Shown here: piece by piece, positions 41,088 through 58,628 of the stretch | Layout: each line of letters opens with the position of its first letter | Position numbering within the stretch: the stretch's first letter is position 1 | NCBI RefSeq assembly: GCF_900116555.1 | Contig: NZ_FPAT01000002.1 | Coordinates: 434,001 to 498,000 of the forward strand | DNA: 64,000 nucleotides | Reading direction: 5' to 3' | Origin: Actinopolyspora lacussalsi subsp. righensis | Lineage (GTDB): Bacteria > Actinomycetota > Actinomycetes > Mycobacteriales > Pseudonocardiaceae | The notes under the pieces: model-generated | What the model saw: the letters and a program-made list of their open reading frames with translations, nothing else | What the model was told of the DNA's origin: nothing | Database searches by the model: none | Made by a program: the position numbers and the translations under genes

Positions 41088-41103
41088 ACGCCAACGGACG
41101 GAC

Positions 41104-41461: not shown

Positions 41462-41494
41462 GTGCTCGCGGCACGATCGCCGCACCGCGAGCAC
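41462..41494 (-). terminator. Hairpin between accD and accE
   Basis: GTGCTCGCGG (41462-41471) with CCGCGAGCAC (41485-41494), a perfect 10-bp stem with a 13-base loop in the ~120-base intergenic region. It could attenuate read-through from accD to accE or protect an mRNA end; no T-run. Confidence 0.45.
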
Positions 41495-41509
41495 CACGAC
41501 CGGCCCCGT

Positions 41510-43147: not shown

Positions 43148-43366
43148 GCCCGGAAGCCTAGCCAGCCGAACTCGTCTCCCACGAAGAGGTCTCGGGTGAC
43201 GAGTATCACCTTTCCGGTGGATGGGGGTCCACCGATTGCCCGCTGAGGGTTATCGGGAAGTGTCGCCGCGTTCGCGGTCGAGTTCGCATCGCGCCCGGGG
43301 TCGGTGACGCGCGGTACATCGGAAGACCGGTCACCACTCGGGCCACCTACGGCATAGCCTGGGCAC

Positions 43367-44200
43367 ATGACCGCCCCGCCCCCGCTGGACGCCGACGCAC
43401 TGCGCGCCCGCCTGCTCGACGACGGCCCGTACCGGGCGCTCGACGTGGTGACCGTGACCGGTTCGACCAACACCGACCTGGTCGCCGCGGCCAGTGCCGG
43501 TTCCCCCGACCGCACCGTGCTCATCGCGGAGGAGCAGCAGGCGGGCAAGGGAAGGATGCGGCGCTCCTGGGTCTCGCCGCGTTACTACGGGCTGCACGTG
43601 AGCGTGCTGCTGCGTCCCGTGGTGGCGGCGCGTACCGCGCTGTCCTGGCTCCCGCTGCTGGCGGGCACCGCGCTGGCCGAGACGGTGCGGGAGACCACCG
43701 GGCTGGCCGCCGAGCTGAAGTGGCCCAACGACCTCCTCCTGGGAGACGACCGCAAGGCGGCGGGCATTCTGGCCGAGGCGGTGAGCACTCTGGACGGTAT
43801 GGCGGTGGTGCTGGGCATCGGCGTCAACGTGCACCACGACGCGGCGAGCCTGCCCGAGAGCGCGGGTGGGCTCCCCGCGACCTCCATCGCCGCCGAGGGG
43901 GGCAAGGTCGACCGCACCGAGCTGCTGGCCGGTCTGCTGGAACGGTTGTCCGAGATCGAGCTGCGTTGGCGCGAGGGGGTGTCCGAGGACGCCCTGGACG
44001 GCGGGGTGCTGGAACGCTATCGGCCGCTTTGCGGCACGATCGGCCGCTGGGTGCGTGTCGAACTCGGCGGTGGCCGGATACTCGAAGGCGAGGCCCGCGA
44101 CGTCGATACCCAGGGCAGGCTCGTGGTCCGCGACCGCGACGGGACGCGCACGCCGGTCTCCGCCGGTGACGTGGTGCACCTGCGTCCGGCCCAGCGCTGA
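43367..44200 (+). CDS. birA: Biotin--[acyl-CoA carboxylase] ligase (BirA)
   Basis: A 277-residue biotin protein ligase, without the N-terminal DNA-binding domain, so not a repressor. Motifs: VTGSTNTDLVAAASAG, AEEQQAGKGRMRRSW with the adenylation GxGxxG-like loop, LKWPNDLLLGDDRKAAGIL and GIGVNVHHD; an SH3-like C-terminal domain follows. It attaches biotin to AccA3. It is divergent from accD with 219 bases between. The 3' end shows a 17-base duplication: CAGCGCTGACCACG occurs at 44192 and again at 44209, including the stop codon. Confidence 0.9.
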   Translation: MTAPPPLDADALRARLLDDGPYRALDVVTVTGSTNTDLVAAASAGSPDRTVLIAEEQQAGKGRMRRSWVSPRYYGLHVSVLLRPVVAARTALSWLPLLAGTALAETVRETTGLAAELKWPNDLLLGDDRKAAGILAEAVSTLDGMAVVLGIGVNVHHDAASLPESAGGLPATSIAAEGGKVDRTELLAGLLERLSEIELRWREGVSEDALDGGVLERYRPLCGTIGRWVRVELGGGRILEGEARDVDTQGRLVVRDRDGTRTPVSAGDVVHLRPAQR

Positions 44201-44429
44201 CCACGACACAGCGCTGACCACGGCCCAGCCGTTGACCTTCGATACGGCTGTTCCGACACCGGGCCACCGGGGGCGGCCGGGCGTTCTCCGACGTGCCACG
44301 ATCCCGCCCCGAACCGGTCGATCCGCGCTTCGCGAGGGCGTGCTCGCGATCTCCCGGACAGGCACGGGAACCGGTCGAGGTTCCGGTACGGTGAGCGTGG
44401 CCCGTCGCTGATCCGAAGGGGGACTACAG

Positions 44430-44939
44430 GTGGCTTATCCCGATGATCAGCTCGGTGAGGGTGAGCAGGTGCTGGTGCACCGGCACCCCCACTGGAAACT
44501 GCTGGTGGGTCCGGTGCTCGCGCTGCTCGTGGTGCTGGCCGGCTTCGGCGCTCTCGTGCTGTTCACCGAGTCGCTCGCCTGGCGCACCCCGGTACTCGCC
44601 GCGGGCGGGATCCTCGGGTTCGTGCTGCTGCTCTGGCTGGTGCTGACTCCGCTGCTGCGCTGGCGCACCACCCACTTCGTGGTCACCAACCACCGGCTGA
44701 TGATCCGCGAGGGGGTCTTCACCCGCTCCGGCGTGCACATCCCACTCGGGCGGATCAACAGCGTCCGATCCAGCCGGGGGCTGCTGGACCGGCTGCTCGG
44801 CAGCGGAACGCTGATAATCGAGTCCGCCTCGGACGAACCCCTGGAGTTCGACGACATCCCGGAGGTGAACCGGGTGCAGTCGCTGCTGTACGGCGCGGTC
44901 GAGGGCGAGCCACACGATCACTACCCGGAGGATCGCTGA
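44430..44939 (+). CDS. PH domain-containing membrane protein (bPH2/YdbS-like)
   Basis: A 169-residue protein with two membrane helices (LLVGPVLALLVVLAGFGALVL and VLAAGGILGFVLLLWLVL) and then a bacterial PH-like domain (WRTTHFVVTNHRLMIREGVF, RINSVRSSRGLLDRLLGSGTL). The GTG start follows AGGGGGACTACAG. Proteins like this are common beside birA and accD in actinobacteria, but their role is unknown. Confidence 0.8.
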   Translation: MAYPDDQLGEGEQVLVHRHPHWKLLVGPVLALLVVLAGFGALVLFTESLAWRTPVLAAGGILGFVLLLWLVLTPLLRWRTTHFVVTNHRLMIREGVFTRSGVHIPLGRINSVRSSRGLLDRLLGSGTLIIESASDEPLEFDDIPEVNRVQSLLYGAVEGEPHDHYPEDR

Positions 44940-44977
44940 TCGCTCGCCGTCCCGGGACGAGGCGATGATTCCGGGTT

Positions 44978-45036
44978 TCTCCCGCCGATGCTCCGTATCG
45001 AGTAGCGTCCTACACCCGTTGGGACCAACGAGAAGC
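44978..45036 (+). repeat. Degenerate R1-like core
   Basis: TTTCTCCCG...GTATCGAGTAGCGTCCTACACCC...ACGAGAAGC: the tip stem GTAG-CGTC-CTAC and flanking bases agree with R1, with TTCTC pairing to GAGAA outside. The other stems are not preserved. It lies in the gap before the HMG-CoA lyase gene. Confidence 0.4.
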
Positions 45037-45071
45037 GGTGCGATCCGTGATCCGTGGAAGGAGACTTGTTG

Positions 45072-46022
45072 ATGGGTGTACGTGCGCTGGGCCTGCCGGA
45101 GGCCACTCGTTCCCCGAACACGCCGGAACTCCCCGAACAGGTGACCATCTGGGAGGTGGGGCCTCGTGACGGGCTGCAGAACGAGAGCGGGGTGATCCCC
45201 TCCGCCGTCAAACTGGAGTTCCTCAACCGGCTCAACGCCGCCGGCCTGCCGGTCATCGAGACCACGAGCTTCGTGCACCCCGACTGGGTTCCGCAGCTGG
45301 CCGACGCCGGCGAGGTCATCAACGGGCTCTCCCCCAAACCCGGCGTGCGCTACCCGGTGCTGGTGCCCAACCAGCGCGGCCTCGACCGCGCCAGGGAGGC
45401 AGCGGTCTCCGACATCGCGATCTTCGCCTCCGCCACCGAGAGCTTCGCCCAGCGCAACCTCAACCGGAGCTTCGAGGAGCAGTTCGAGATGTTCCGCCCG
45501 GTCGTGCGGGGTGCGGCGTCCTCCGGCATGCGGGTCCGCGGCTACCTCTCGATGGTCTTCGGCGATCCGTGGCAGGGTGCCGTGCCGGTCGAGCAGGTGG
45601 TCGACGCGGGCAAGCGGCTGTTGGGAATGGGCTGTGACCAGCTCTCGCTGGGCGACACCATCGGTGTGGCCACGCCCGGCCAGGTCGAGAGCGTGCTGCG
45701 CGGTTTCTACGAGGCCGACATCACCGCTGACCGGCTGGCCGTGCACTTCCACGACACCTACGGTCAGGCACTGGCCAACACCTACGCCGCACTGCGGCTG
45801 GGGATCAGCACCGTCGACGCCTCGGCGGGTGGACTGGGCGGCTGCCCCTACGCGGGCTCGGCGACCGGCAATCTGGCCACCGAGGACCTGGTCTGGATGC
45901 TCTCGGGGTTGGGAATCGAGCACGGTGTCGACCTGGAGCTGCTCGTCGACACCAGCACCTGGATGGCCGAGCGACTCGGCAAACCGAGCCCCTCGCCGGT
46001 GGTCAAGGCGCTGGCGCGATGA
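45072..46022 (+). CDS. Hydroxymethylglutaryl-CoA lyase
   Basis: A 316-residue TIM-barrel lyase that splits HMG-CoA into acetoacetate and acetyl-CoA, the last step of leucine breakdown. IWEVGPRDGLQNESGVIP carries the catalytic Arg-Asp, VIETTSFVHPDWVPQLADA follows, then VHFHDTYGQALAN with the metal histidines and AGGLGGCPYAGSATGN with the catalytic cysteine. ATG 45072 has GGAAGGAG eight bases upstream, better than the frame start at 45054. Overlaps cbiZ by ATGA. Confidence 0.9.
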   Translation: MGVRALGLPEATRSPNTPELPEQVTIWEVGPRDGLQNESGVIPSAVKLEFLNRLNAAGLPVIETTSFVHPDWVPQLADAGEVINGLSPKPGVRYPVLVPNQRGLDRAREAAVSDIAIFASATESFAQRNLNRSFEEQFEMFRPVVRGAASSGMRVRGYLSMVFGDPWQGAVPVEQVVDAGKRLLGMGCDQLSLGDTIGVATPGQVESVLRGFYEADITADRLAVHFHDTYGQALANTYAALRLGISTVDASAGGLGGCPYAGSATGNLATEDLVWMLSGLGIEHGVDLELLVDTSTWMAERLGKPSPSPVVKALAR

Positions 46023-46687
46023 CGATCTCGGAGACCGTGCGCTTCCCGGCCACGAGCACGCGCATCCTGCGGGGACAACCGCTGCTGGCCTGGGAGTGCC
46101 CCGGTGAGTGGTTGACCGTTTCCTCCGGCTCGTACGGCGGCGGTCTCGGACTCCGTCGCTGGGTGCTCAACGCCACCGTCCCCAGTGGATACGACCGCCC
46201 CGATCCGGCCGAGCACATCGCCGAGATGGCCGGGGAACTGGAGCTCGAAGGGCCGGGCACCGGACTGTTGACCGCGGTGGACGTGCGGCACGAGGTGACC
46301 GCCGTCGAATCGGGTGTGCGGGCGAGCGTGACCACCGGGGTGGGCTATCCGATCTGGGCCGCGCACGATGCCGCCGACACCTCGCACCTGGTGCGGGACC
46401 ACATGCCGGGAACCATCAACGCGGTGTGCTTCCTCCCGGTGCGGTTGAGCGAGTCCGCGCTGGTCAACCTGGTCGCCACCGTCGCCGAGGCGAAGGCGCA
46501 GGCCCTGTCGGAGGCGGGGGTGCCCGGTACCGGCACCTGCACCGACGCGACCGTGCTGCTGTGTCCGTCGGAAGGCGAGCCCGAGCCGTACGGCGGGCCG
46601 CGTTCCGTGCTCGGCGCGCCGCTGGCTCGGGTGATCCACCGGGCGGTGACCGAGGGGCTGCGCGTGACCAACCCGCGGCACGGCTGA
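46019..46687 (+). CDS. cbiZ: Adenosylcobinamide amidohydrolase (CbiZ-like)
   Basis: A 222-residue protein of the CbiZ family, which removes the aminopropanol side chain of adenosylcobinamide to salvage corrinoids. Recognised by SSGSYGGGLGLRRWVLNATVP at the start (in two parts), TAVDVRHEVTAVESGVRASV, TTGVGYP, and the C-terminal TDATVLLCPSEGEPEPYGGP. It overlaps the HMG-CoA lyase gene by four bases, so the two are co-translated, an odd functional pairing. No cobalamin riboswitch was recognised upstream. Confidence 0.82.
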   Translation: MTISETVRFPATSTRILRGQPLLAWECPGEWLTVSSGSYGGGLGLRRWVLNATVPSGYDRPDPAEHIAEMAGELELEGPGTGLLTAVDVRHEVTAVESGVRASVTTGVGYPIWAAHDAADTSHLVRDHMPGTINAVCFLPVRLSESALVNLVATVAEAKAQALSEAGVPGTGTCTDATVLLCPSEGEPEPYGGPRSVLGAPLARVIHRAVTEGLRVTNPRHG

Positions 46688-46703
46688 TCGCGTGTCTCGG
46701 TGA

Positions 46704-46733
46704 TCCGTCCCGGAACGTTCTTACTCGGACGGA
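46704..46733 (+). terminator. Possible terminator after cbiZ
   Basis: TCCGTCC (46704-46710) pairs with GGACGGA (46727-46733) around a 16-base loop containing TTCTTACT, 17 bases after the cbiZ stop. Weak, with no T-run. Confidence 0.35.
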
Positions 46734-46830
46734 ACCGGTTCGGCGGTTCACACGTCCGAACGTGCGGCTCGCCCCTGTCCGTCGGAGCGGATCCGAGCGA
46801 GCTAGGTGGCAGGCAGCGGGAGGAAGGTGA

Positions 46831-47337
46831 GTGGCGTTGACCGACCATCGGACGCAGGTCGAGGAGATGATCGCCGACTACCGGCGCAGCAGCCAGCGGC
46901 TTTCCGAGGTCGACGAGGAGCTCGCCTCGATCGAGGAGACCGCCGGTGACGAGCGGGGGGACGTATCGGTCACCGTCGGCTCCGGGGGAGCGTTGCGACG
47001 GGTGTGGCTGGCCGAACAGGTCTACCGCACGCACTCCCCGGACGAACTCGGCAGGCTGATCGTGCGGCTGTCCGCCACGGCCACCGCGCGGATCGCCGAA
47101 CGCACCGACGCGGTGCTCGCGACGGTGCTCCCGTCCGGCTCCGACCCCGCCGCCTTACGCGTCGACTCCGCGACGTCCGCTGCCGCCGCTTCCTCCGTCA
47201 CCGGGGTGTCGGTGCCCAACGGCTCCGGCGTTGCGGACAATGGGCCGCGGAATTCGGCAGCGGAGCCCGAGCAGGACGAGTCGCTCGAACCCCGCAGCTG
47301 GCTGCGGGACGTCGGAGCGGCGGAACGGGACCGGTGA
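46831..47337 (+). CDS. YbaB/EbfC-family-like protein of a toxin locus
   Basis: A 168-residue protein. The first ~105 residues have a YbaB/EbfC-like layout: a long helix (RTQVEEMIADYRRSSQRLSE), a beta stretch (GDVSVTVGSGGALRRVWL) and a final helix (DELGRLIVRLSATATARIAE). The C-terminus is disordered (Ser/Ala/Glu-rich). GGGAGGAAGG lies before the GTG. In Pseudonocardiales this type of protein often leads WXG100-toxin operons, as here; a role in DNA binding is not shown. Confidence 0.7.
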   Translation: MALTDHRTQVEEMIADYRRSSQRLSEVDEELASIEETAGDERGDVSVTVGSGGALRRVWLAEQVYRTHSPDELGRLIVRLSATATARIAERTDAVLATVLPSGSDPAALRVDSATSAAAASSVTGVSVPNGSGVADNGPRNSAAEPEQDESLEPRSWLRDVGAAERDR

Positions 47338-47666
47338 TGACAGGTTTCCACAGTGAACTCGGGAAACTCACCGAGCACGCCGGTGAGTTCACCGAGCACG
47401 CGGAACAGGCCAGGCGGATCCGGGACGAGCTGCGCACCGCCCTGGATGCCTCGGGCGACTGCTGGGGCTCCGACGAGGCGGGAGCCAGGTTCGCCGAGCT
47501 GCACCTCCCCGGCGTCGAGCGCGCGCTGCGCGGGCTCGAACGGTTGCCGGACGAGCTCGCGGAGATGGGAACGAAGCTGTCGGAGACGGCCGAGACCTAC
47601 CGCCGCACCGACGAGGCGGCGGCCGAACGACTTGACGGGATCGATGCCGGGCCGGAACGGGAGTGA
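47337..47666 (+). CDS. WXG100/EspC-like type VII secretion partner
   Basis: A 109-residue, two-helix protein without signal peptide. Helix 1 LTEHAGEFTEHAEQARRIRDEL, turn DCWGSDEAGARF containing the W-G pair, helix 2 GLERLPDELAEMGTKLSETA (each split here to short stretches). It starts in a one-base overlap with the YbaB-like gene and ends overlapping the toxin gene by four bases (GTGA/ATGA type). It is the likely secretion partner of the TNT protein. Confidence 0.75.
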   Translation: MTGFHSELGKLTEHAGEFTEHAEQARRIRDELRTALDASGDCWGSDEAGARFAELHLPGVERALRGLERLPDELAEMGTKLSETAETYRRTDEAAAERLDGIDAGPERE

Positions 47667-50116
47667 TCGGAGTGGGGATCGAACTTCCCGTCGAACTGCG
47701 CGGGGTGGCCGAACGCACCGGCACGCACTGGCCGGAGGCCGATGAGGACGCCATGCGCGAGGCGGCGGCCGCCTGGCGCCGTGCCGCCGGTTCGCTGCAC
47801 AGGTTGGCGGCTACTTCCGACACCTCCGCCGGCGGAGCGCTCGCCTCGATCGAGGGTGAGACGGCGCGGGCCGCTAGCGGTCACTGGCAGGGTTTCGTCG
47901 ACCCGGACACCGGCCGGTTGCCCGGTTGCGCACGGGAGTGCGCGGCGGCGGCCGACCGGCTGGATCACGCGGCGGAGCAGGTGGGTGCCGCCAAGGTGCG
48001 CATCGTGCGGGAACTGGTCACGCTGGCCAAGCGGACCGCCGCGGCCGAGCGGGCCGCCGTGGCGGGGAACCCCTCCGCCGCGTTGCGGGCCGAGTCCGCC
48101 GTGGGGGACGCGGCCACCAACATCGCGGAGCTGAACCGGAGTCTGGTCGGGGCGGTGGACAGTTCGGGCGGGGTCACCATCGATTCGGGTGCGTCCCCCG
48201 GTTCCGCACCGCCCGACTCAGCGCCGTTCGGCGCTACCGAGGCGGAAGACGAACCGGCCGGTGTCGTCGAGGCGGTCGCGAACCCGGTGTCGGATGTGAG
48301 TTCGGTGGGGGACGCCGTTTCAGGGGCGGGTGCCCTGGTGGATGAAGGAGCTGTCGGCGAGGCGGGCAACCGTGCGGCTTCGCCGGCGGACCCGCCCTCG
48401 GCACCGGCTGACGAGCCCGCTGCGCCGGGGCAGGAATCCGAGCGCGGGGAGCCCGACACATCCCGCAGCCGGATATCGGAGCTCCTCTCGCCCGTGTCCG
48501 GACCCGACGAGCGGGGTCCGGTCGTGGGGCCGGATGGCACTGGGCCTCCTCTACACGCTAATCAGCCGGGAGAGGCCGCCGACCGGGAACTGACGGGACC
48601 GGTCTCGCCGGACACGGTTCGACGCGCCGCTGCCGGACCGGCGGGCGGCCCGGAGGCCGGGACCGGACCGATACCCGTCGTGGATCCCGCCGCGTCCTCG
48701 GCTCCCGACGTCGCACCGGTATCGGGCGTGGGTGGCGAGCGCACCGATGTCGAGCGTGACCCGATCACCGCGCCGCAGGCCGTGCACCAGGCATGGGCGT
48801 CTCCCGCCGCCGCGCCGCCACCCGCACCGCCGGGTCCGGCCGCGCCGCCACCCGCCGGTCCCGCACCGCAACCCGGCGCCGTCCCGCAGGGTCCCGCCGG
48901 ACAACCGGGAATGACTGGACAGCCCGGAATGACTGGACAGCCGGGGACCACCGGTCAGCCGCAGCGGCCGGGTGTGCCACCGCCTCCGGCCGCTCCCGGG
49001 CATGGCAGGGGAGCCGGACAGCCGGAGCCCGGACAGGCGGCTCCGCGCCCCGGCCCTCCGGTGCGGGGCGGTTACCAGCCCACCGGGACGGCCCATCCGG
49101 GTGTGGCGCCACCGGTGGGACGTAATCCGTTCGCTCCCGGCGGCGGCATCTCGCAACAGCCCCCGCCACCACCGCACCCAGCGCAGCAGCACCCACCGCA
49201 GCAATCTCCCCAGCCGCAATCCCCACAACAGCAGCCGGTCGAGGGGCGACGCCCGCTGCGGGAGAACCAGCGGGACCCAGCCGTCGTGGCGTTCGTGCTG
49301 CACCAGTTCCCGCTGGGGCACATGCCGGTGGCCGAGACCCGACCGAGCAGGCAGTGGTCACCCTCCGGGCAACCGTCCGAACGGGACACCTTCACGGTGC
49401 CGCCGCGGTCGCATCCGCGTGCGGACCTCGTCGAGGAGTACGCCGTTGTCGGGCTCGCGCGCTCCACCGAGCACCGAGCCGCTCCGGGAGCGGCGGAGGA
49501 CGCGGACCGCACGGTCCCCGAGGAGCTGCTCGTCGACTACGAACCACTCGGCCCGGAAGCCGAGGTCGGCGAGTTCGAGTGGGAACGGCGTTACCTGCTT
49601 CCCGGGCCGGGTGGGAACCGCACGCACGCCTACGACTGGCCGGTGCGGCACGGTTTCGCGGACAACGGCGTGGCGGAACCCGACCCCGAGGTGTTGCCGC
49701 CGGGCACGATGCTCGATCGGCTGGGTGATGAGTGGGGACTCGTGCTGGCTCCCGAGGGGACCGCGTTCGCCGACCGTTCGCTGCCTCCGGAGTTCCGCGA
49801 GCGGGCATATCGGCGTTACCGGGTGGTGCACCCGTTGCCGGTGTGGCTCACCCGGGCGGTCGCCTGGTTCGAGCAGCCCGGCACGGGGCTGCGCTACCGC
49901 ACGACGCACCCGATCGCCGAGCTGGTGGCCCTGGGCCTGCTGACCGATCCGACCGTCGGAGCCGAACAGGCCACCGACTCGGAAAACGTGACCGAGTCCG
50001 AACCGGACTCCACACCCTCGGACCTCGCGGCGGAGTCCGATGAGACGGAACAGACCGTGCGAATCCGGAGTAACGACATGAGTTCGGTGGAGGATTCCGC
50101 CGGAGCGATGCGCTGA
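47663..50116 (+). CDS. Polymorphic toxin with C-terminal TNT NAD+ glycohydrolase domain
   Basis: An 817-residue protein in three parts. Residues ~1-170 are a helical WXG/PPE-like export domain (GVAERTGTHWPEADEDAM; SGHWQGFVDPDTG). Residues ~175-540 are a disordered Ala/Pro/Glu/Gln linker with GQPGMT repeats and PPPPP runs. Residues ~640-765 match the TNT domain (tuberculosis necrotizing toxin fold), which hydrolyses NAD+: HAYDWPVRHGF (Y657), LPPGTMLDRLGDEWG (R686), YRRYRVVHPLPVW and AWFEQPGTGLRYR (Q738). These agree with TNT active-site positions by pattern. It follows a WXG100 gene and precedes an immunity-like gene, so it is inferred to be an exported or contact toxin acting on NAD+. Confidence 0.85.
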   Translation: MIGVGIELPVELRGVAERTGTHWPEADEDAMREAAAAWRRAAGSLHRLAATSDTSAGGALASIEGETARAASGHWQGFVDPDTGRLPGCARECAAAADRLDHAAEQVGAAKVRIVRELVTLAKRTAAAERAAVAGNPSAALRAESAVGDAATNIAELNRSLVGAVDSSGGVTIDSGASPGSAPPDSAPFGATEAEDEPAGVVEAVANPVSDVSSVGDAVSGAGALVDEGAVGEAGNRAASPADPPSAPADEPAAPGQESERGEPDTSRSRISELLSPVSGPDERGPVVGPDGTGPPLHANQPGEAADRELTGPVSPDTVRRAAAGPAGGPEAGTGPIPVVDPAASSAPDVAPVSGVGGERTDVERDPITAPQAVHQAWASPAAAPPPAPPGPAAPPPAGPAPQPGAVPQGPAGQPGMTGQPGMTGQPGTTGQPQRPGVPPPPAAPGHGRGAGQPEPGQAAPRPGPPVRGGYQPTGTAHPGVAPPVGRNPFAPGGGISQQPPPPPHPAQQHPPQQSPQPQSPQQQPVEGRRPLRENQRDPAVVAFVLHQFPLGHMPVAETRPSRQWSPSGQPSERDTFTVPPRSHPRADLVEEYAVVGLARSTEHRAAPGAAEDADRTVPEELLVDYEPLGPEAEVGEFEWERRYLLPGPGGNRTHAYDWPVRHGFADNGVAEPDPEVLPPGTMLDRLGDEWGLVLAPEGTAFADRSLPPEFRERAYRRYRVVHPLPVWLTRAVAWFEQPGTGLRYRTTHPIAELVALGLLTDPTVGAEQATDSENVTESEPDSTPSDLAAESDETEQTVRIRSNDMSSVEDSAGAMR

Positions 50117-50178
50117 TGTCTTTTTGTCCTCTTGGTGCTGGGACAGTTCTACTGTGGCTCCCCGCGTGGGACTCCCAC

Positions 50179-50330
50179 CACTTCCGCAGGCCGAACTCCG
50201 ACCGCCCTCGCAGCCGGCACCGCCGCGGGTTCTCCCGTGCGGCTCTCGCGAGGACGGCCCCGACGTTGTGTAGCCGCTACCCGATGTCGGGGCACCCGCA
50301 GCGAGAGCCGTGCGAGAGGTTCCGCCAAGT
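50179..50330 (-). repeat. R1 structured repeat, full-length copy 7 (reverse orientation)
   Basis: Read on the minus strand it repeats copy 1 over ~150 bases, including the outer stems (GCGG/CCGC, CTCTCG/CGGGAG, GGCTCTCGC/GCGAGAGCC) and the 3' extension GTCGGAGTTCGG. Inner stem is CCCCGAC/GTCGGGG where copy 1 has GCCGG/CCGGC, and the tip is GTAG-CGG-CTAC, so pairing is kept while bases differ. It is inserted between the toxin and its immunity-like gene. Confidence 0.8.
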
Positions 50331-50377
50331 GACTCTCCACGCAAATCGAGGTAGCAGAGTCCTGCTGAGGAGGCCGT

Positions 50378-50947
50378 GTGAATTCTGAATCCGTGTTGGG
50401 ATGGCTGGAGGCGATGGGAGTGCCACCGCGGGTGGTTTCCGTCGCGGCCGAGCGCGACGACGCCTGGTGCCTGCTGCGGGACGACTCCGAAGGACAACAG
50501 GTCTGGGACGTGTTCTGGCGTGAGCAGGGCAACCGCTACGACTGGGCGCGGTTCTCGGACGAACGGGTGGCTTGTTTCTACCTGTTCGGACGGTTGACCT
50601 GGACCCAGGCGCTGCGGGGCGCGGTCGGCCCGCTCGACTCCGGCAGCACACCGCCCAGGGGAGTCCCGATCCCCGGTGGCTCCGCCGATCCCGGCAGCGG
50701 TTTCCCCGATGCGGGCGGCGGTTCCTCCGAATCCGCCAGCGCTTCTTCGGGGGCTGGTAGCGCTTCTTCGGGGTCTGGCAGCGCTTCTTCGGGGTCCGGT
50801 AGCGGCTCCCCCGATGTGGGCAACGGCCCGGCGACCCCCGCCACCGGCAACACCCCGGCCGAGCCCGACTCCGGGAGTTCCCACCGGGATACTTCCGGAA
50901 CCGAGCAGGGTGCCGCCAGGTCGGAACGGCACACCTCGGGCGGCTGA
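50378..50947 (+). CDS. Probable TNT immunity factor with Ser-Gly repeat tail
   Basis: A 189-residue protein. The first ~85 residues look like the immunity factors coded after TNT toxins: VLGWLEAMGVPPRVVSVAAE, DDAWCLLRDDSEGQQVWDVFWRE, GNRYDWARFSDERVACFYLFGRL (given in parts). The rest is a low-complexity Ser/Gly/Pro tail made from 21-base DNA repeats (unit AGCGCTTCTTCGGGG plus six variable bases, 50738-50803). GTG 50378 has GAGGAGG five bases upstream. Role in neutralising the NADase is inferred from position and domain pattern. Confidence 0.7.
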   Translation: MNSESVLGWLEAMGVPPRVVSVAAERDDAWCLLRDDSEGQQVWDVFWREQGNRYDWARFSDERVACFYLFGRLTWTQALRGAVGPLDSGSTPPRGVPIPGGSADPGSGFPDAGGGSSESASASSGAGSASSGSGSASSGSGSGSPDVGNGPATPATGNTPAEPDSGSSHRDTSGTEQGAARSERHTSGG

Positions 50948-50964
50948 GCACCCCGCCCGCGCGG

Positions 50965-50982
50965 CGATTTCGCGAGAAATTG
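50965..50982. repeat. P2 palindrome
   Basis: CGATTTCGCGAGAAATTG flanked by GCGG and ACAC, 18 bases after the immunity gene stop; one mismatch at the end of the core. Confidence 0.65.
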
Positions 50983-51030
50983 ACACCGGCCCGGCCGACG
51001 CGCTTCCTCCTGGAACGGTTCCGAAAACGA

Positions 51031-51046
51031 GTGTACGATCGTCCGC
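51031..51046. promoter_or_regulatory. Operator-like palindrome upstream of the MFS gene
   Basis: GTGTACGATCGTCCGC, 14 of 16 bases identical to the perfect palindrome before the acetyltransferase gene (52326-52341). It ends 22 bases before the MFS start. The shared site suggests control by the TetR protein encoded at 52937-53497. Confidence 0.6.
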
Positions 51047-51068
51047 TCCGGTGGGTAGGCTGCCGCGC

Positions 51069-52277
51069 ATGACCGTTGCCGCACCATCCCGACCCACCCA
51101 GGTCGAGCGGCGGGCTCGCGTGGCCGTTGCCGTGCTGTTCTTCACCAACGGAGCCCTGTTCGCCAATCTGCTGCCGAGATTTCCGCAGATCAAGGCGGAT
51201 CTCGGACTCGGCAACGCCGCCTACGGGGTGGCTGTCGTGGCGTTCCCGATGGGGGCCATCGTCGCCGGCCTGGCCGCAGGGGTGGCCGTCCGGCGGCTGG
51301 GTTCCGCGCGGGTGGCGGTCGCGGGCACCCTGCTGACCGCGGTGGGAATCCTGGTCGCGGGAACGGCGGGTTCGGTCGCGATGTTCGCGGGAGCACTGCT
51401 TCTCGCCGGTGCGATGGATTCGTTGACCGATGTCGCGCAGAACGCCCACGGATTGCGGGTGCAGCGCCGCTACGGACGTTCCATCATCAACTCGTTCCAC
51501 GCCATCTGGTCCATCGGGGCAGTGACCGGCGGATCCATGGCCGCCGCCGCGATCGCCCTCGACCTCTCACGGGCCCAGCACCTGGCGATCTCTGCGGCGG
51601 TGTTCGTGCTCGCGGCCTGTGCCGCTTGGACGTTCTGCCTGCCCGAGTCCGACGACGAATCCACCCCGGAAGCCGACGCCGACCTCGGGAAGGCGGGACG
51701 GGCGGAGCGCGTGCTCCCGGGGCGGCGCATCGCGTTCGTGCTGGCATCGCTCGTCGTCATCGCCATGGCCGGAACGCTCGTCGAGGACGCGGGCAACTCC
51801 TGGGCCACGCTCTACCTCTCCGAATCGCTGCACGCGCCCGCGACGTTGGCGGCCCAGGGCTACGTGGCGCTGGTTGCGGCCCAGTTCGTCGGCCGCATCC
51901 TCGGTGATCGGCTCGTCGAACGGTTCGGGCAGCGCACCGTGGCCCGTTCCGGTGGTCTGATCACCGCCGTCGGTATGGGCCTGGCGCTGGCTGTTCCGAC
52001 CGTGCCCGGCACGGTCCTCGGCTTCGCCGCCGCCGGGTTCGGGGTGGCGACGCTGGTGCCCGCCGCGATGCACGAGGCCGACGAGCTGCCCGGGCTCAAG
52101 CGGGGGTCGGGGCTGACCGTGGTCTCCTGGCTCATGCGGCTGGGCTTCCTGCTGTCCCCGCCGCTGGTCGGCCTGGTCGCCGATACGGCAGGCCTCCGGG
52201 TGGGGCTGCTGGTGGTGCCGCTGGCCGGGGTGCTCGTGCTGTTGTTCGCGGGAGTGTTGAGCAACCGGCGCGCCTGA
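51069..52277 (+). CDS. MFS transporter
   Basis: A 402-residue major facilitator protein with about 12 helices and a charged central loop (CLPESDDESTPEADADLG). The first helix region FFTNGALFANLLPRFPQIKADL and the loop GLAAGVAVRRLGSARVAVAG resemble the YbjJ-like/sugar-efflux-type MFS subgroup (NGALFANLLPRFPxIK). ATG 51069 is chosen; the frame extends far upstream without support. It shares an operator-like palindrome with the acetyltransferase-TetR unit 60 bases downstream. Confidence 0.85.
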   Translation: MTVAAPSRPTQVERRARVAVAVLFFTNGALFANLLPRFPQIKADLGLGNAAYGVAVVAFPMGAIVAGLAAGVAVRRLGSARVAVAGTLLTAVGILVAGTAGSVAMFAGALLLAGAMDSLTDVAQNAHGLRVQRRYGRSIINSFHAIWSIGAVTGGSMAAAAIALDLSRAQHLAISAAVFVLAACAAWTFCLPESDDESTPEADADLGKAGRAERVLPGRRIAFVLASLVVIAMAGTLVEDAGNSWATLYLSESLHAPATLAAQGYVALVAAQFVGRILGDRLVERFGQRTVARSGGLITAVGMGLALAVPTVPGTVLGFAAAGFGVATLVPAAMHEADELPGLKRGSGLTVVSWLMRLGFLLSPPLVGLVADTAGLRVGLLVVPLAGVLVLLFAGVLSNRRA

Positions 52278-52325
52278 GCCGTGATCGGTAGATACTCCGA
52301 TTCGGGCGTTCCGGATCGGACCGGA

Positions 52326-52341
52326 GCGTACGATCGTACGC
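52326..52341. promoter_or_regulatory. Perfect 16-bp palindrome abutting the acetyltransferase start
   Basis: GCGTACGATCGTACGC, a perfect palindrome ending at the base before the ATG. A near copy lies upstream of the MFS gene. It leaves no room for a normal ribosome site, so the mRNA may be leaderless or the site overlaps the transcription start. Confidence 0.65.
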
Positions 52342-52923
52342 ATGCCGAGTGACTACTTCGCGGACGATCCGCGCACGAATCTCGAACGCATGGCGGCCGG
52401 GGACCTGTATATCGCCGACGACCCCGAGTTCGGCCGCAGGCAGCGGCGGGCAGTACGACTGGCCGCCCGCTACCAGGCCGCCTACGTCGAGGATCCGGAC
52501 GCGGCGCGGCCGATCCTCGCCGAACTGCTCGGCTCGGTGGGCGATGAGGTGCACCTGCGGCCACCACTGCACGTGGACTACGGCAGCAACATCACGATCG
52601 GGGCGCGCAGCTTCGTCAACTACAACCTCACCGCGCTGGACGTCGCGTCGATCACCATCGGCGAGGACTGCCAGATCGGTCCGGGAGTCCAGCTGCTCAC
52701 CCCGACACATCCGCTGGAACCGCAACCCCGGCGCGACAAGCTGGAGGCCGCGAGCCCGATCGCCATCGGCGACAACGTGTGGCTCGGCGGCGGCTGCGTC
52801 GTGCTGCCCGGCGTGACCATCGGCGAGAACTCCGTCATCGGTGCCGGTGCGGTGGTGACCAGGGACGTGCCCGCCGACGTCGTCGCCGTCGGCAATCCGG
52901 CCCGCGAGGTCCGCGACCTCTAG
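52342..52923 (+). CDS. Maltose/galactoside O-acetyltransferase family protein
   Basis: A 193-residue hexapeptide-repeat acetyltransferase that moves acetyl from acetyl-CoA to a sugar hydroxyl. N-terminal Mac domain: DYFADDPRTNLERMAAGDLY, then left-handed beta helix with YGSNITIGARSFVNYN, the catalytic-type histidine in LLTPTHPLEPQPRR, and VWLGGGCVVLPGVTIGENSV. Length and motifs fit the family (LacA/Maa). The next gene is a TetR regulator, separated by 1-13 bases, so the two form an operon. Confidence 0.88.
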   Translation: MPSDYFADDPRTNLERMAAGDLYIADDPEFGRRQRRAVRLAARYQAAYVEDPDAARPILAELLGSVGDEVHLRPPLHVDYGSNITIGARSFVNYNLTALDVASITIGEDCQIGPGVQLLTPTHPLEPQPRRDKLEAASPIAIGDNVWLGGGCVVLPGVTIGENSVIGAGAVVTRDVPADVVAVGNPAREVRDL

Positions 52924-52936
52924 GATGCTCGGTGTC

Positions 52937-53497
52937 ATGGCTACCGGACACACCGACCCGAGGCGCCGCGAGCGCATCATCGAAGCGACCCTCGACCTGA
53001 TCGCCGAGGAGGGGATCGCCAACGTCTCCCACCGCAGGATCGCCACCCGGGCGGGGGTGCCGTTGGGGTCGATGACCTACCACTTCGGCGGGCTGGAGGA
53101 GCTGCTCCGGGAGGCGTTCGGCAGGTTCGCCGAGCGGATCGTCGCCCTGTTCGACAGCTACCTCGCCGCGCCGACCGACCGGGAGCGGGCCAGGGACGCG
53201 GTGACCGACCTCATCCACGAGCTGTCCGAGGACGATCAGCGCTACCTGGTGCTCACCCAGGAGCTCTACACCCTGGCCGCCCGGCAGCCCGCCTACCGGG
53301 AACTGACCAAGGAGTGGATGCGCCGCAGCCGGGTCCACCTGGAGAAGCACTTCGACCCGGACACGGCCCGCCAGCTCGACGCCCTCATCGAGGGAATGAC
53401 CCTGCACCGCGCCCTGACTCCCGAACCCCACGACCGAGCCCTCACCCGCGAGGCCGTCACCCGCATCACCACGAGAGACTCGAATGAGAGGTGCTAG
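52937..53497 (+). CDS. TetR-family transcriptional regulator
   Basis: A 186-residue regulator with a standard TetR helix-turn-helix (RRRERIIEATLDLIAEEGI, ANVSHRRIATRAGVPLGSMTYHFG) and a helical C-terminal ligand domain (DQRYLVLTQELYTLAARQPAYREL). The ATG at 52937 gives the typical start; the ATG at 52925 is also in frame. It probably binds the palindromes at 51031 and 52326, controlling the MFS gene and its own operon. The AT-rich island begins right after its stop. Confidence 0.85.
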   Translation: MATGHTDPRRRERIIEATLDLIAEEGIANVSHRRIATRAGVPLGSMTYHFGGLEELLREAFGRFAERIVALFDSYLAAPTDRERARDAVTDLIHELSEDDQRYLVLTQELYTLAARQPAYRELTKEWMRRSRVHLEKHFDPDTARQLDALIEGMTLHRALTPEPHDRALTREAVTRITTRDSNERC

Positions 53498-53779
53498 GTC
53501 CAGTGTCACTGCCATGCTCTCGCAGAGAGTGAAGTAGGTTTGTGGCTGTCTCGTGCAGGAATCCTATGAAGCAGTTCTTTTGATTAGCTCATTCGGTCAT
53601 AGCTTCCACGTCCAGTGCCTTTTCAGGTTATCTGTCTATCCTTGACGAAGGAAAAATTTCACAGTCGCATATTTACTGCATTTAGGTTGACGGAGTTATG
53701 TACTTTAACATTCGGAGGTTCGATTAAGAGGAATAGTTGCGGCGCGAAGGTGCCCTGGTTGACTCCAGGTAGGAAAAGA

Positions 53780-53872
53780 ATGTCCTTGTTTGATCTACCG
53801 CCGCTGTTTATCTCGTCGTACTTAGCGTACAATACAAAAAGAAGATGTTTGTCTAGTTTGGATGGTCGTTGA
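53780..53872 (+). CDS. Possible 30-residue leader ORF of the mCpol gene
   Basis: ATG 53780, preceded by AGGAAAAG, opens a 30-codon frame (begins MSLFDLPPLFISSYLAYN, ends CLSSLDGR) whose stop overlaps the TTG start of the mCpol gene as TTGA. The overlap suggests translational coupling. It could be a leader peptide or a chance frame; the longer version from 53615 looks less likely. Confidence 0.35.
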   Translation: MSLFDLPPLFISSYLAYNTKRRCLSSLDGR

Positions 53873-55338
53873 AAACAAAAACGTTCAGATTTCGGTACTG
53901 GGTAGATGATTTCGAGAATTTCTTTTTCTGGTTTTCCGTCGCTTTTGTTGCTGGAGCGGGACCAAATATTGCAGACGACTGGGGAAGTGGAGGGCTTGTT
54001 TCTGTAGGTGTTTTCATGGGCATAATCGCCGCATTGTTCTGGTATAAAAATAAAAGAAAATATGGAGTTGGTGTCTACATTAGCCTGCCATCAAAGAATG
54101 ACAAAACAAGAGAGAAATATCCTCCCCTTTCGATTCGAAAAACAATGGATCGTTCGCATAGGGACTGGTTTATCTATGGGCCTGACAAGTTGACAAATTC
54201 AGAGATTGAAAGAGCAAATTGGGTGATTGACACTATAGGGTACCGAATAGAAGAAGCTAAAACTAAAAACCAAGAGGACCATCCACTGTTTTTCTATATA
54301 CACAGCCGTCTTCCTGAAGCGTTTGCTGTTGGACAGAAGGCGGCAATTCTCTGGGATAGGGATGTGTATCCTGAAGAAAACTATGATTCTTCTTGGTATG
54401 CTTTGGATATAGATTTCCGTGTGCGCTCATTCGCTCGATACAACAGGAGTGAGCGTATATACGAGTTAAATTTAAGAGAAATTTTTAACGGATACAGTTC
54501 TGAACTAAATTCTGATCCGGGTTATCGCTGGTTTGATAATATCGATCTGAAAGAGATAAGAAGCTATAGAGATCTGGCACCGCTTAAACGTTCACAGTTG
54601 GCTGTCATTTTGCATATAGAACATGTGGAAGGGAGCTCGCGTGCTTTTCGTGACAGTGCAGCGTTGGCCTCTGCCGGAGTTGCTAACAATGGCTACTTAG
54701 TCACGGGAGAAGACGAGTGCGATGAAGCAGTATTTTTCAGTGTTGGAGCAAAGCAATTCTTTCAAAAGTTACAAAACGGAGAGGCAGAGTCGATAGTTCG
54801 TAATATACTGCATACGTGCCAAAAGTACAGTGCACGTGTGTATGGGCGTCAAGATAATCCAGTTCGATTACTTACGAACGCCCCTTCTGTCTTCGCATTT
54901 GCGGCCGGGGCTTATTTCCCTATGAATAGTAAGTTAATTCGTTACTCGCAAGATCGCGATGGTCCAGAATATACAGAATCGAGTGATTTGATTGCCATTA
55001 TCGATGGCGATGATGTTGGAGCTCAAACGGAGAGTAGCCTACTTTCTCGTGATTTGGAAACCGCTGTTGAATGGAGTAACAAAGCTGATAAATCCTTGCG
55101 GAACATCGTACAAAAAGTAATAGAAGTAAGTGGTGTTTATCTTGTTTCTTCGGGGGGAGATAGCGCAATATTTGCATTACCCAAAAGCGCTCTCCCTGTA
55201 TTCTTGGAAACCCTCGAGTATCTTCGAGAAGAAACAGGATTCCGGGTTTCGTGCGGTTACGGTGCAGACTCCAGGGAAGCCTTTGTTTCTTTGCGTATTG
55301 CCAAAAATTCTGGAAAGAATGTCAGCATTGGAGCTTGA
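53869..55338 (+). CDS. 2TM - CARF/SAVED-like sensor - mCpol fusion (Panoptes-like defence protein)
   Basis: A 489-residue protein read as three parts. Residues ~17-59 hold two membrane helices (ENFFFWFSVAFVAGAG; LVSVGVFMGIIAALFWY) ended by basic KNKRK. Residues ~65-360 show two CARF/SAVED-like halves, recognised by HPLFFYIHSRLPEAFAVGQ (138-156) and LLTNAPSVFAFAAGAYFP (334-351). Residues ~370-489 match mCpol, the minimal CRISPR polymerase: metal motif IIDGDDVG (377-384) and GGDS (429-432) where polymerases have GGDD, then GFRVSCGYGAD and SLRIAKNSGKN. mCpols make cyclic nucleotides, and in Panoptes a separate 2TM protein senses them; here both lie in one chain. Start TTG 53869 is the only one possible: the frame is closed at 53854. 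Very AT-rich codons indicate transfer. The sensor fold is my inference. Confidence 0.8.
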   Translation: MKTKTFRFRYWVDDFENFFFWFSVAFVAGAGPNIADDWGSGGLVSVGVFMGIIAALFWYKNKRKYGVGVYISLPSKNDKTREKYPPLSIRKTMDRSHRDWFIYGPDKLTNSEIERANWVIDTIGYRIEEAKTKNQEDHPLFFYIHSRLPEAFAVGQKAAILWDRDVYPEENYDSSWYALDIDFRVRSFARYNRSERIYELNLREIFNGYSSELNSDPGYRWFDNIDLKEIRSYRDLAPLKRSQLAVILHIEHVEGSSRAFRDSAALASAGVANNGYLVTGEDECDEAVFFSVGAKQFFQKLQNGEAESIVRNILHTCQKYSARVYGRQDNPVRLLTNAPSVFAFAAGAYFPMNSKLIRYSQDRDGPEYTESSDLIAIIDGDDVGAQTESSLLSRDLETAVEWSNKADKSLRNIVQKVIEVSGVYLVSSGGDSAIFALPKSALPVFLETLEYLREETGFRVSCGYGADSREAFVSLRIAKNSGKNVSIGA

Positions 55339-55557
55339 GGTGATGTTGTCACGATGTATTCGAAAAAACTGACACTTGCATCCTTCTGGTTCTTTCGGGG
55401 TATTCGGTCTTGTTAGTGTATCGAGTTTTGGAAGTGTGTTGACGATGTGCAGTATATAGGCGACATAAGGAAATATATGATGATCGGTCCGGAGGGTAGA
55501 TTCAGGCGCTTACTCCGAGCAGTTATATTCTTTTTTGGTAAGATGACGCAGAATAAA

Positions 55558-55583
55558 GCCCATCCAGAACACTCTGGATGGGC
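55558..55583 (-). terminator. Terminator of the second DUF397/XRE unit
   Basis: A perfect 11-bp stem (GCCCATCCAGA, 55558-55568 with 55573-55583) and a 4-base loop; on the minus strand it is followed by TTTATT. It lies 20 bases beyond the DUF397 stop and also faces the end of the mCpol gene, so it may act both ways. Confidence 0.8.
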
Positions 55584-55602
55584 CGTGCTGTCTGTGTAGG
55601 AT

Positions 55603-55794
55603 TCAGTTGAACCGACTGCTCTTCACTGCGTTGATGAACGTTGTCCACTGCTGGTGGTTAGCGGTCAAGTATCCGGCTGATCGATTCTTGGTGTCGCGCA
55701 CTGCCGCGCCTTCGTTGATGCGGCCAATTTCGAGGCAGCTGCTGTTGGGGCCGGAGTAGCTGGATTTGCGCCACTGGTGGGGTAACGTATTCAT
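55603..55794 (-). CDS. DUF397 domain protein (second copy)
   Basis: A 63-residue DUF397 protein: HQWRKSSYSGPNSSCLEIG, AAVRDTKNRSAGYL and a final WTTFINAVKSSRF. It begins in a four-base overlap with the XRE gene upstream. Its sequence is only loosely like the copy at 11203-11409. The XRE partner has lost its N-terminus, so this copy may be orphaned in function. Confidence 0.85.
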   Translation of the reverse strand: MNTLPHQWRKSSYSGPNSSCLEIGRINEGAAVRDTKNRSAGYLTANHQQWTTFINAVKSSRFN

Positions 55795-56575
55795 TGGGAA
55801 TTTCCTTCGAACTGCTGCGCTATTGATTCCATGAGGTTTTCAGAATCTGCGGGGTTCATAGTCGTGCTGAGGAGTGTCTCCATTTCGTCGCGGTAAGCTT
55901 TGACGTCCTGGACGTCGTAGAGGAAGGCGGGGTCGCGAAAGTGTTCCAGGTGCACGATGGGAGCGGCTTTCGTGAACTCGTAGAACACGAAGGCTCCATC
56001 GTGGTCCAGTGTCCAGTGGCGCACCTCGCTGGAGAGAACGCGCACGGTGATGTTGTCATGGTGTGACAGTTCGATGATGTGGCGTAGCTGTTCTGCCATG
56101 ACGGCGTCGGTGCCGAAGGGGTCGCGGAATGCCCGCTCGGTCACCACTACGTCCAGGTGACGCGGTATGTTCAACATGGCTGTTCGTGCCATGCGTAGCT
56201 CGACACGGACATCCCGCTCATCGGGCGGAAGGCTGATCATTGTTTCGTGTGCGTAGGAACGAGTCTGCAACGGCCCGGGAATCAGCAGCGGTGCCACGTG
56301 CAGCACGCGATCAGCCGTTCTGTCGAACTCCGACAGTTCGATGAGGTGGCGGTGCAGTCCCTTGGAGCTGTCGGCGATCAGGTTCGGTGCTGTCGCTGTG
56401 CTCGCGAACTCGACCAGCTCGTCGTATCTGGCTCCGGTGACTCCGAGAGTTCCGGCGACGCGGGCCACGTATTCGGGTTTCGGTGCGCGCTCGCCTCGTT
56501 CGTAGCGGGAGACGGTCCCCTGCGAGACTTCCAGGAGTTTTCCCAGATCACGAACAGTGGAAGCTGGAGCAGGCT
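55791..56575 (-). pseudogene. XRE/DUF5753 regulator lacking its N-terminal helix
   Basis: The frame encodes a normal DUF5753 regulator from VRDLGKLLEVSQGTVSRYERG onward (helices 2-3 of the HTH), then the ligand domain (LLIPGPLQTRSYAHETM, ELRMARTAMLN, VRVLSSEVRHW, FLYDVQDVKAYRDEM). Upstream of about 56556 the sequence stops resembling the family: helix 1 and the natural start are missing, and the frame continues open to 57227 only as antisense of other genes. Compare the complete paralogue at 11427-12296. No good start codon lies near the break, so I treat it as truncated; a cryptic upstream start cannot be excluded. Confidence 0.65.
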
Positions 56576-56758
56576 TCCTACGACATTCCGGCCCGGCAGG
56601 CCACCCCGAGGCAGTGCGCCGAACTCGCCGGAGTGCTGCAGCGGCTCTCGGATGAGCTGCGTGACTACGCCGCCGCGCTGGCCTTCGGCGGCGGCCAGCC
56701 GCCGGAATCTGGGTCGATCGACCCGGACGAGTTCCGTAGGCGGGGTGAGGCGGAGTGA
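56558..56758 (+). pseudogene. C-terminal remnant of an unknown protein at the scar
   Basis: Plus-strand frame coding ASYDIPARQATPRQCAELAG, VLQRLSDELRDYAAALAFGG and GSIDPDEFRRRGEAE before the stop at 56756-56758. The composition is protein-like and differs from antisense noise, but no start codon lies in frame at the 5' border (the GTG at 56557 is one base off). It begins where the XRE gene on the other strand breaks off, so both appear cut by one rearrangement. Family unknown. Confidence 0.5.
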
Positions 56759-56791
56759 CGACGCATCCGGCGATGCTGCTGACCACCGGTC

Positions 56792-57190
56792 GTGCTGACG
56801 GCCACCGCGATCGTGCTGGGCGGCTGGGGCAATCGGGCGAGTTATCGGCCCCGCCACGCCAGCGGCAGCGGCCCGGCCGCCAGACGGCTGGCCGCACTGC
56901 GGCTGGAGCACTATTTCCGGGACGAACGCCCCACCACCGAGTTGATCGGCTGGCCGCTGTGCGACCCGGACGAGCATCCGCACCTGTTTCGGCTCGACCC
57001 ACCGGCCCCGGTGGTCCCGTCACTGACGCCGACACCGGAGTCGCCACCGGCCGTGCCGCATCCCACAAGCCCGACCACCGTGAATACCGCTCCCGCCGTT
57101 TCCGCTGCCTCCCCTGAACCCGCGTCGGTGGCAGAGCCTCCCGAGCTGGCGCTGTTGCGCCGCGTCCTCGACGGACTCCACCGCCTCTAG
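56792..57190 (+). CDS. Hypothetical protein next to the remnant
   Basis: A 132-residue frame starting at GTG 56792: a short hydrophobic start (LTATAIVLGGWGNRAS), a soluble section (AALRLEHYFRDERPTTELIG, DPDEHPHLFRLDPPAP) and a Pro/Thr/Ala-rich part ending in LALLRRVLDGLHRL. A start GTG at 56755 in the next frame (MTTHPAMLLTTG) would read into this protein if one base near 56788 were absent, giving a complete N-terminal helix; a frameshift is therefore possible. Unrecognised. Confidence 0.5.
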   Translation: MLTATAIVLGGWGNRASYRPRHASGSGPAARRLAALRLEHYFRDERPTTELIGWPLCDPDEHPHLFRLDPPAPVVPSLTPTPESPPAVPHPTSPTTVNTAPAVSAASPEPASVAEPPELALLRRVLDGLHRL

Positions 57191-57312
57191 ACACTGACTC
57201 GCCCCAGCTTCCGTCCCCCACGACCACTCTTCACCCAGACCGGCCCGGAACCGTGCACTCGGCACACCCCCGACACCCGCCGAGACACACCCCGGGCCCG
57301 GTGGCGGGGCGT

Positions 57313-57596: not shown

Positions 57597-57686
57597 GTGC
57601 AGGCCCCGCGCACGCGGGGATAGACCGCAGCGCAGCGCGGTCAGCATGGTGGTGGTTCTGTAGGCCCCCGCACGCGGGGAGAGCTG
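57597..57686 (+). CRISPR. Two-repeat CRISPR relic, type I-E-like
   Basis: Repeat 1 begins at 57597 (GTGCAGGCCCCGCGCACG, then CGGGGATAGACC) and repeat 2 at 57658 (CTGTAGGCCCCCGCACG, then CGGGGAGAGCTG). The stem GCCCC-CGC-ACGCGGGG is the classic type I-E actinobacterial hairpin. The start-to-start distance is 61 bases, the exact type I-E period (29 + 32). Repeat 2 is degenerate, no third unit is seen at 57719, and no cas gene is in the window. A decayed array or isolated mini-array. Confidence 0.55.
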
Positions 57687-57845: not shown

Positions 57846-58628
57846 TCAACCGTCCAGCGCGCGCAGCGCGGCCCGGTGCAGCGCGCCGTTGGAGCTCAGC
57901 GCGTTGCCGCCGTCGAAGCGCGGCTCGCCGGACAGGTCGGTGAAGCCGCCCCCGGCCTCCTCGACGATCACCTGCGCCGCCGCGAGGTCCCAGGGATTGC
58001 CCAGCGGCTCGGCCGCCAGATCTATCACGCCCTCGGCCACCAGGCAGTGGTGCCAGAAGTCCCCGAAAGCCCGGCTCTCCCAGCAGCTGTCCACCAGCCG
58101 CAGGTAGTCCGCGCGCCGCTCCAGCTCGCTCCAGCTGCCCAGATTCGTGGTGGAGACGTAGGCATCGCCCAGCTCGGTCACCCCGGAGACCGAGATCCGC
58201 TCCGCGTCACCCTCGGCACCGACCCGCCGATAAGCACCCTCACCGGCGGCGGCCCACCAGCGCCGCCCCAGCGCCGGAGCGCTGATCACACCGACCACCG
58301 GCGAGCCGTTCTCGACCAGCGCCAGCAGCGTCGCCCACGCGGGCACCCCGCGCAGGAAGTTCTTGGTCCCGTCGATCGGGTCGATGATCCAACTGCGCCC
58401 GGCCGTCGCGCTGCCGCCGCGCTCCTCACCCACCACCACGTCGTCCGGGCGGTGCTCGGCCAGCTCCGCGCGCACCGCGTCCTCCACGGCCACGTCCGCG
58501 TCGGTCACCGGCGTCCGGTCGGGCTTGCTCGTCGTCCGCAGATCGGCCGCCTGGAACCGGGCGGTGGTGATCTCGTCGGCACGGTCGGCCAGGCGCCGCG
58601 CCAGCTCGTGATCGGTAACTGCGCTCAC
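57846..58628 (-). CDS. hisN: Histidinol-phosphatase (HisN, inositol monophosphatase family)
   Basis: A 260-residue Mg2+-dependent phosphatase that makes histidinol from histidinol-phosphate. IMPase signatures: SKPDRTPVTDADVAVE, GEERGG, WIIDPIDGTKNFLRGVP and NPWDLAAAQVIVEEAGG. The pattern of residues after DGT and the GDFWHH segment fit the HisN subgroup rather than SuhB. It is divergent from the response regulator. A P2 repeat lies in the gap. Confidence 0.85.
   Translation of the reverse strand: MSAVTDHELARRLADRADEITTARFQAADLRTTSKPDRTPVTDADVAVEDAVRAELAEHRPDDVVVGEERGGSATAGRSWIIDPIDGTKNFLRGVPAWATLLALVENGSPVVGVISAPALGRRWWAAAGEGAYRRVGAEGDAERISVSGVTELGDAYVSTTNLGSWSELERRADYLRLVDSCWESRAFGDFWHHCLVAEGVIDLAAEPLGNPWDLAAAQVIVEEAGGGFTDLSGEPRFDGGNALSSNGALHRAALRALDG

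Follow-up and report, generated by a model that had tools for sequence, protein, structure and literature searches.

Gene Content of the Locus

The window analysed here, a stretch of 64,000 nucleotides from Actinopolyspora lacussalsi subsp. righensis, encodes a single chain in which two likely transmembrane helices (2TM) are followed by a SAVED-fold sensor, as predicted, and a C-terminal mCpol cyclase domain (Table 1). The TTG start of the open reading frame (ORF) coincides with the position at which homologues begin to align. The gene lies in an AT-rich insert (GC 43.3% at 53500-55560, vs. 70.5% at 40000-53400), and the foreign base composition described in an earlier reading made from the sequence alone (hereafter the sequence-only reading) is thereby borne out. 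In a blastn comparison with a genome of the same species (G399), similarity stops at 53472 and restarts at 55573, with different DNA in between. Apart from the fusion, the insert contains an ORF of 85 aa that has no Pfam match; no separate S-2TM-beta effector gene adjoins the fusion. Beside the insert, at 55600-57230 (minus strand), are an HTH/DUF5753 regulator and, adjoining it, a small ORF that we take to be of the DUF397 type, a pairing common in actinomycetes. Two degenerate palindromic GC-rich repeats (57605-57623 and 57665-57683, 60 bp apart), with similar stretches found by blastn in G399, G007, and G004, are reminiscent of the remnants of a type I-E CRISPR array.

Table 1. Features of the fusion gene and its surroundings, in window coordinates.
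Feature	Position	Strand	Remarks
Left flank of the hotspot: gene with unnamed product, beginning MNSESV	50378..50947	+	Conserved
TetR-family regulator	52925..53497	+	Pfam TetR_N; neighbour, not thought to be part of the system
AT-rich insert in the hotspot	53500..55570		GC 0.43 vs. 0.70; blastn break against G399
2TM-SAVED-mCpol fusion gene	53869..55338	+	489 aa; TTG as start codon; uninterrupted by stops
Two likely transmembrane helices, residues ~18-36 and 39-57	53920..54039	+	Hydropathy; short loop between
SAVED-fold sensor domain, residues 61-366	54049..54966	+	Predicted fold
mCpol cyclase domain, residues 373-489	54985..55335	+	Pfam, NCBIfam, PDB sequence and fold matches
Catalytic motif D379-G-D381-D382	55003..55014	+	D379 = KpOptS D6
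GGDS hairpin, residues 429-432	55153..55164	+	D431 = KpOptS D57; invariant in 5/5
Inositol-monophosphatase-like gene, conserved right flank	57846..58628	-	Pfam Inositol_P, E 1.4e-48

Domains of the Fusion Protein

The C-terminus matches the mCpol models of Pfam (PF18182; residues 376-485, E 9.2e-20, 71.6 bits against a cut-off of 26.4) and NCBIfam (NF033576; 41.3 against a cut-off of 40), and both models match all five fusion homologues described below (E up to 1). By sequence, its closest relatives in the PDB are structures of Panoptes mCpol (9mnr, E 2.5e-7), and the region superposes on OptS with the palm fold and two catalytic aspartates present. Profile, sequence, and fold therefore uphold the assignment to mCpol made in the sequence-only reading, together with its two motifs (IDGDDVG at 378-384 and GGDS at 429-432); far from belonging to an unrelated fold that lacks the catalytic carboxylates, the domain aligns D379 and D431 with D6 and D57 of KpOptS, the residues whose replacement by Asn abolishes product formation according to PMC12657218.

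D379, G380, and D381 are invariant in the five fusions, and D382 is replaced by Asn in one. Also invariant is Ser403, the counterpart of KpOptS S30, which is described as a base-contact residue (PMC12657218). It had been suggested that the Ser of GGDS might alter activity or product. We find no such warning sign: the hairpin (G429-G430-D431-S432) is kept in all five fusions, and the position following the catalytic Asp is occupied by Gly in KpOptS, which is active, and by Asp in the mCpol of a Nostoc plasmid. The cyclase motifs accepted in a survey of Cas10 all have an acid as the last residue (PMC11229360); GGDS would be unusual for Cas10, but not for mCpol, and its Ser is a signature of the fusion clade.

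For the middle region, comparison of the predicted model with known folds places 27 SAVED entries before everything else. These matches include the membrane SAVED protein Cap14/3TM-SAVED bound to 2',3'-cGAMP, an activated filament of SAVED-CHAT, and a Cap5 tetramer in its activated state, and the predicted fold consists of two fused CARF-like units, i.e., SAVED. By sequence profile, SAVED models score below their cut-offs (Pfam: 14.7 vs. 26.2, E 0.026; NCBIfam, residues 282-370: 19.7 vs. 33, E 4.8e-4). The region is thus, as modelled, a divergent SAVED-fold domain. The two segments previously read as CARF/SAVED-type (138-156 and 334-351) do fall inside it, as parts of a SAVED rather than a CARF fold.

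The N-terminal pair of membrane helices is supported as likely by hydropathy, since residues 39-57 (1.93) and 18-36 (1.21, only a modest score) are the two best 19-residue windows of the protein, and also of the mean of the five homologues (2.07 and 1.51). The next window, a buried SAVED strand, follows closely (1.12-1.13 in this protein, 1.32 in the homologue mean), and in the G050 homologue a window of the SAVED fold outranks the second helix. The residues KNKRK stand after helix 2, and by the positive-inside rule the C-terminus is probably cytosolic. The full-length structure model, built from three sequences, is weak (mean pLDDT 64, pTM 0.52), and weakest in the membrane part, where it shows a single long helix (12-62) of low confidence.

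Distribution and Conservation

Searches with the fusion protein give matches in four of 100 relatives, and a profile of those homologues in four of 397 genomes of the order, the genome of the window being counted in both. The two samples overlap, and distinct full-length fusions number five: that of the window and those of A. mortivallis (G006; 65% identity to the window protein), Streptoalloteichus tenebrarius (G009), G050, and G330. None has an internal stop, and the proposal that synthase, sensor, and membrane effector occupy one polypeptide holds for all five genomes. In a sample of the class, two of 394 genomes matched, namely the window itself and G931, whose chain lacks mCpol. mCpol is rare in the phylum: one of 396 genomes, that of the window, scores above the cut-off, and one further genome below it. 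For the pair of Actinopolyspora genes, dN is 0.26 and dS 2.45 (near saturation); calculated for each of three parts of this pair, dN is 0.23-0.27 and dS is at or close to saturation. Pairwise identities of the 2TM+SAVED part and the mCpol part are correlated (r 0.98 over ten pairs; r 0.60 when the one close pair is removed), which gives no strong independent sign that the two halves descended jointly. The GC content of the five genes is 43% and 45% in the two Actinopolyspora copies, and 51%, 57%, and 64% in the others.

A recognisable partner gene is absent at four of the five fusion loci. The G050 copy is flanked by a peptidase gene on one side and a superoxide dismutase gene on the other. 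Close to the S. tenebrarius copy there are unclassified ORFs and others that may serve defence, the latter including one for a Schlafen-type helicase and one for an HNH endonuclease (L007:10550-13690). Genome-wide, the Cap15 model (PF18153) matches none of the five carriers, a result that is uninformative alone, as controls gave no match either. The CD-NTase model PF18144 is unmatched in six genomes at E up to 0.001, against matches in three of 14 control genomes.

An Insertion Hotspot in Actinopolyspora

The Actinopolyspora locus between the MNSESV gene and the inositol-phosphatase gene is a hotspot. The phosphatase gene has a close match in all 10 genomes of the genus (own genome included). 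Measured between matched parts, the two flanks are 24, 135, and 181 bp apart in G002, G005, and G001, respectively. The gap is 2354 bp wide in A. mortivallis, with the fusion as the sole ORF picked in it, and 7.1 kb wide in the window; G399, of the same species as the window, has 9.9 kb, and the genomes G003, G004, and G008 have 14.7-17.5 kb. For G007, no match to the left flank lies within the stretch examined.

Type III CRISPR genes occupy this slot in four of the 10 genomes (G003, G004, G007, and G008), each of which has a Cas10-palm match 9.1-12.3 kb from the phosphatase gene. For G003, profiles identify Cas10, a Csm3-like RAMP, another RAMP, and a Cas11-like ORF; for the other three, the type III genes beyond the Cas10 palm are read from ORF order only. 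By alignment, a membrane-associated CARF gene is present in these four genomes and in G399. The G399 gene (L049:9373-10539; PDLC01166, E 1e-181) sits at the position that the fusion has in the window, and the matching genes in L045-L048 are divergent from the type III operon. G399 has no match to the Cas10-palm model (PF22335) genome-wide, and its CARF gene is perhaps an orphan effector. A small protein with hydrophobic stretches (VKRTPPRG...TVFAV; L045:3309-3755, with equivalents in L046, L048, and L049) is kept at the hotspot edge, close to the TetR gene.

The rarity of the gene could be read as that of a decaying protein or one without a defence role, such as a housekeeping second-messenger switch. 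We consider this highly improbable in view of the patchy presence, the low dN, the slot common to type III loci, and the foreign composition of both Actinopolyspora copies, a feature that the G330 copy, not being AT-rich (64% GC), does not share.

Association With Type III CRISPR

In G330, the fusion (L036:8656-10128, minus strand) is followed 175 bp on, on the same strand, by Cmr2 with GGDD (TIGR02577, above cut-off), then by Cmr3 and three RAMP ORFs. Repeats of CRISPR-like type lie upstream, and the same run also has a CARF-RelE-like frame and a match to a six-helix membrane protein model; the membrane protein (PADLOC Mem_01) and the CARF-RelE frame (L036:1371-2741 and L036:2732-4297) are candidate type III effectors. 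G330 is the only one of the five fusion carriers in which the Cas10-palm model PF22335 finds a match; the genome of the window has none.

The relative in G931 is a 399-aa 2TM-SAVED protein without mCpol (its helices read by eye), encoded directly upstream of a Cas10 ORF on the same strand; repeats of CRISPR-like type lie alongside, as does a Cas6-like ORF that scores below the cut-off. The alignment between the fusion profile and this protein spans 306 columns (hhalign E 4.8e-9), covering the N-terminal three quarters. The PADLOC family of this protein, PDLC01176, is found in 15 of 397 genomes of the order, or 11 after removal of four spurious matches. Six of these 11 have a Cas10-palm match (five above the cut-off) and five do not, and in four of them the distance between Cas10 and the mCpol-free 2TM-SAVED gene is 4.0, 4.6, 10.3, and 15.2 kb. 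Within Actinopolyspora, G002 carries such a gene (L077:8305-9273) on a contig other than that of its Cas10 match. Against the fusions themselves PDLC01176 is weak (E 3.5e-5 for G330 and 1.1e-3 for G050), and those of the window, A. mortivallis, and S. tenebrarius are unmatched.

Given the kinship with the G931 protein and the occurrence of PDLC01176 genes near Cas10, the effector half resembles an ancillary effector of type III systems, and the fusion as a whole has the look of one equipped with its own cyclase. The fusion might itself serve type III systems, SAVED reading Cas10 products in trans while mCpol boosts, competes with, or guards the signal. The G330 arrangement, the type III genes in the slot of the window in four of 10 genus genomes, and the mCpol-free 2TM-SAVED genes within 16 kb of Cas10 in four of 11 genomes are consistent with this; with the Cas10 palm unmatched in four of five carriers, the window's included, we regard it as improbable. 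Speaking against a necessary type III link, a Cas10-palm match occurs in only one of the five carriers; PF18144 is matched in none of the six genomes.

Proposed Mode of Action

The reading that we favour, with middling confidence, is that of a self-contained effector: a type III-style 2TM-SAVED protein that brings its own mCpol and applies the inhibitory logic of Panoptes in cis, presumably in defence against phage. Chains would associate via mCpol; pairing of the fused chains is expected because the active site pocket of KpOptS is formed by two protomers (PMC12657218). The mCpol domain would produce a cyclic dinucleotide continuously, and the product would occupy the SAVED domains within that assembly, keeping the membrane helices silent. 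A phage sponge or nuclease that strips the product would allow the helices to assemble, so that the membrane is damaged and infection stopped. Toxin and antidote enzyme would be inseparable, as Panoptes logic in cis. In Panoptes, mCpol is constitutive and its product restrains the 2TM toxin (PMC12657218; PMC12657230).

The sign of the signal cannot be read from the sequence, and according to PMC12657218 it is still to be seen whether mCpol effectors beyond OptE are inhibited or activated. The opposite logic in cis would have mCpol off until infection, its product then filling SAVED and opening the helices, as in CBASS and type III CRISPR. SAVED effectors in those systems are generally switched on by their ligand, and the 2TM-SAVED kin near Cas10 would be expected to answer Cas10 products. 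Profile searches, however, recognise no additional infection-sensing domain in the chain, and the mCpol of Panoptes is constitutive, so that we hold activation to be rather unlikely. We prefer the inhibitory sign, as constitutive activity is what the mCpols studied to date show, and fusing such a synthase to a killer activated by its product would be suicide for the host. The favoured reading has a difficulty of its own as a decoy: although Panoptes usually accompanies CBASS, the CD-NTase model PF18144 (0/6 genomes) and, for the most part, the Cas10 palm (1/5 carriers) go unmatched, so the host signal that a phage would be attacking, and with it the cause of depletion, is not evident. The single chain simplifies the question of sign, as a point mutant of the cyclase would be lethal if the signal is inhibitory and harmless if it is activating.

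We tentatively suggest a one-gene inhibitory system, in which a miniature Cas10 was grafted onto a type III membrane SAVED effector. In most of the lineages found it would operate outside CRISPR loci, and where it adjoins a Cmr operon its role may be to guard the type III signal from phage ring nucleases and sponges, as Panoptes guards CBASS.

Comparison With Known Systems

The mCpol synthase of Panoptes is present in the fusion; the operon with a separate effector is not. OptS is a separate protein (PDB 9mnr, 9pd0, and 9nwn; chains of 125-131 residues), whereas mCpol is fused here, and the partner OptE combines 2TM with a beta-barrel, where the fusion combines 2TM with SAVED. Panoptes often stands beside CBASS. 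Two-gene operons in which 2TM-SAVED or 2TM-CARF genes neighbour mCpol are described in PMC12657218; these have the same parts as the fusion, in two genes rather than one chain. On a Nostoc plasmid, mCpol is paired with a partner that matches the CARF_TM model, whose hydrophobic stretch (read by eye) is at the C-terminus, unlike the N-terminal one here.

The fusion had been called unusual. Fused mCpol does have precedent: in PMC12657218, mCpol genes are described as "coupled in operons or fused" to domains of the HEPN and 2TM kinds, and the PADLOC family CARF_HEPN_mCpol (PDLC01967, 471 positions), judged by name and length, unites sensor, effector, and C-terminal mCpol in one chain. That family has a CARF sensor and a HEPN effector instead of SAVED and 2TM, and matches only the mCpol part of the window protein. 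PDLC01176 2TM-SAVED proteins (named CorA-like) share the membrane segment and SAVED but have no mCpol in the chain. Cap14/3TM-SAVED of CBASS (PDB 9om7, 9wq2, and 9wq3) is a fold relative of the SAVED part. In CBASS, the signal is made by a separate CD-NTase; here PF18144 is unmatched in the six genomes searched. No description of 2TM-SAVED-mCpol in one chain was found in the running text of the literature searched. The parts and logic are already known, and the single-chain 2TM-SAVED-mCpol appears to be a new arrangement of them. Through the shared chromosomal slot, the related effector half, and the one copy adjoining a Cmr operon, the fusion ties signalling of the Panoptes type to type III CRISPR instead of to CBASS.
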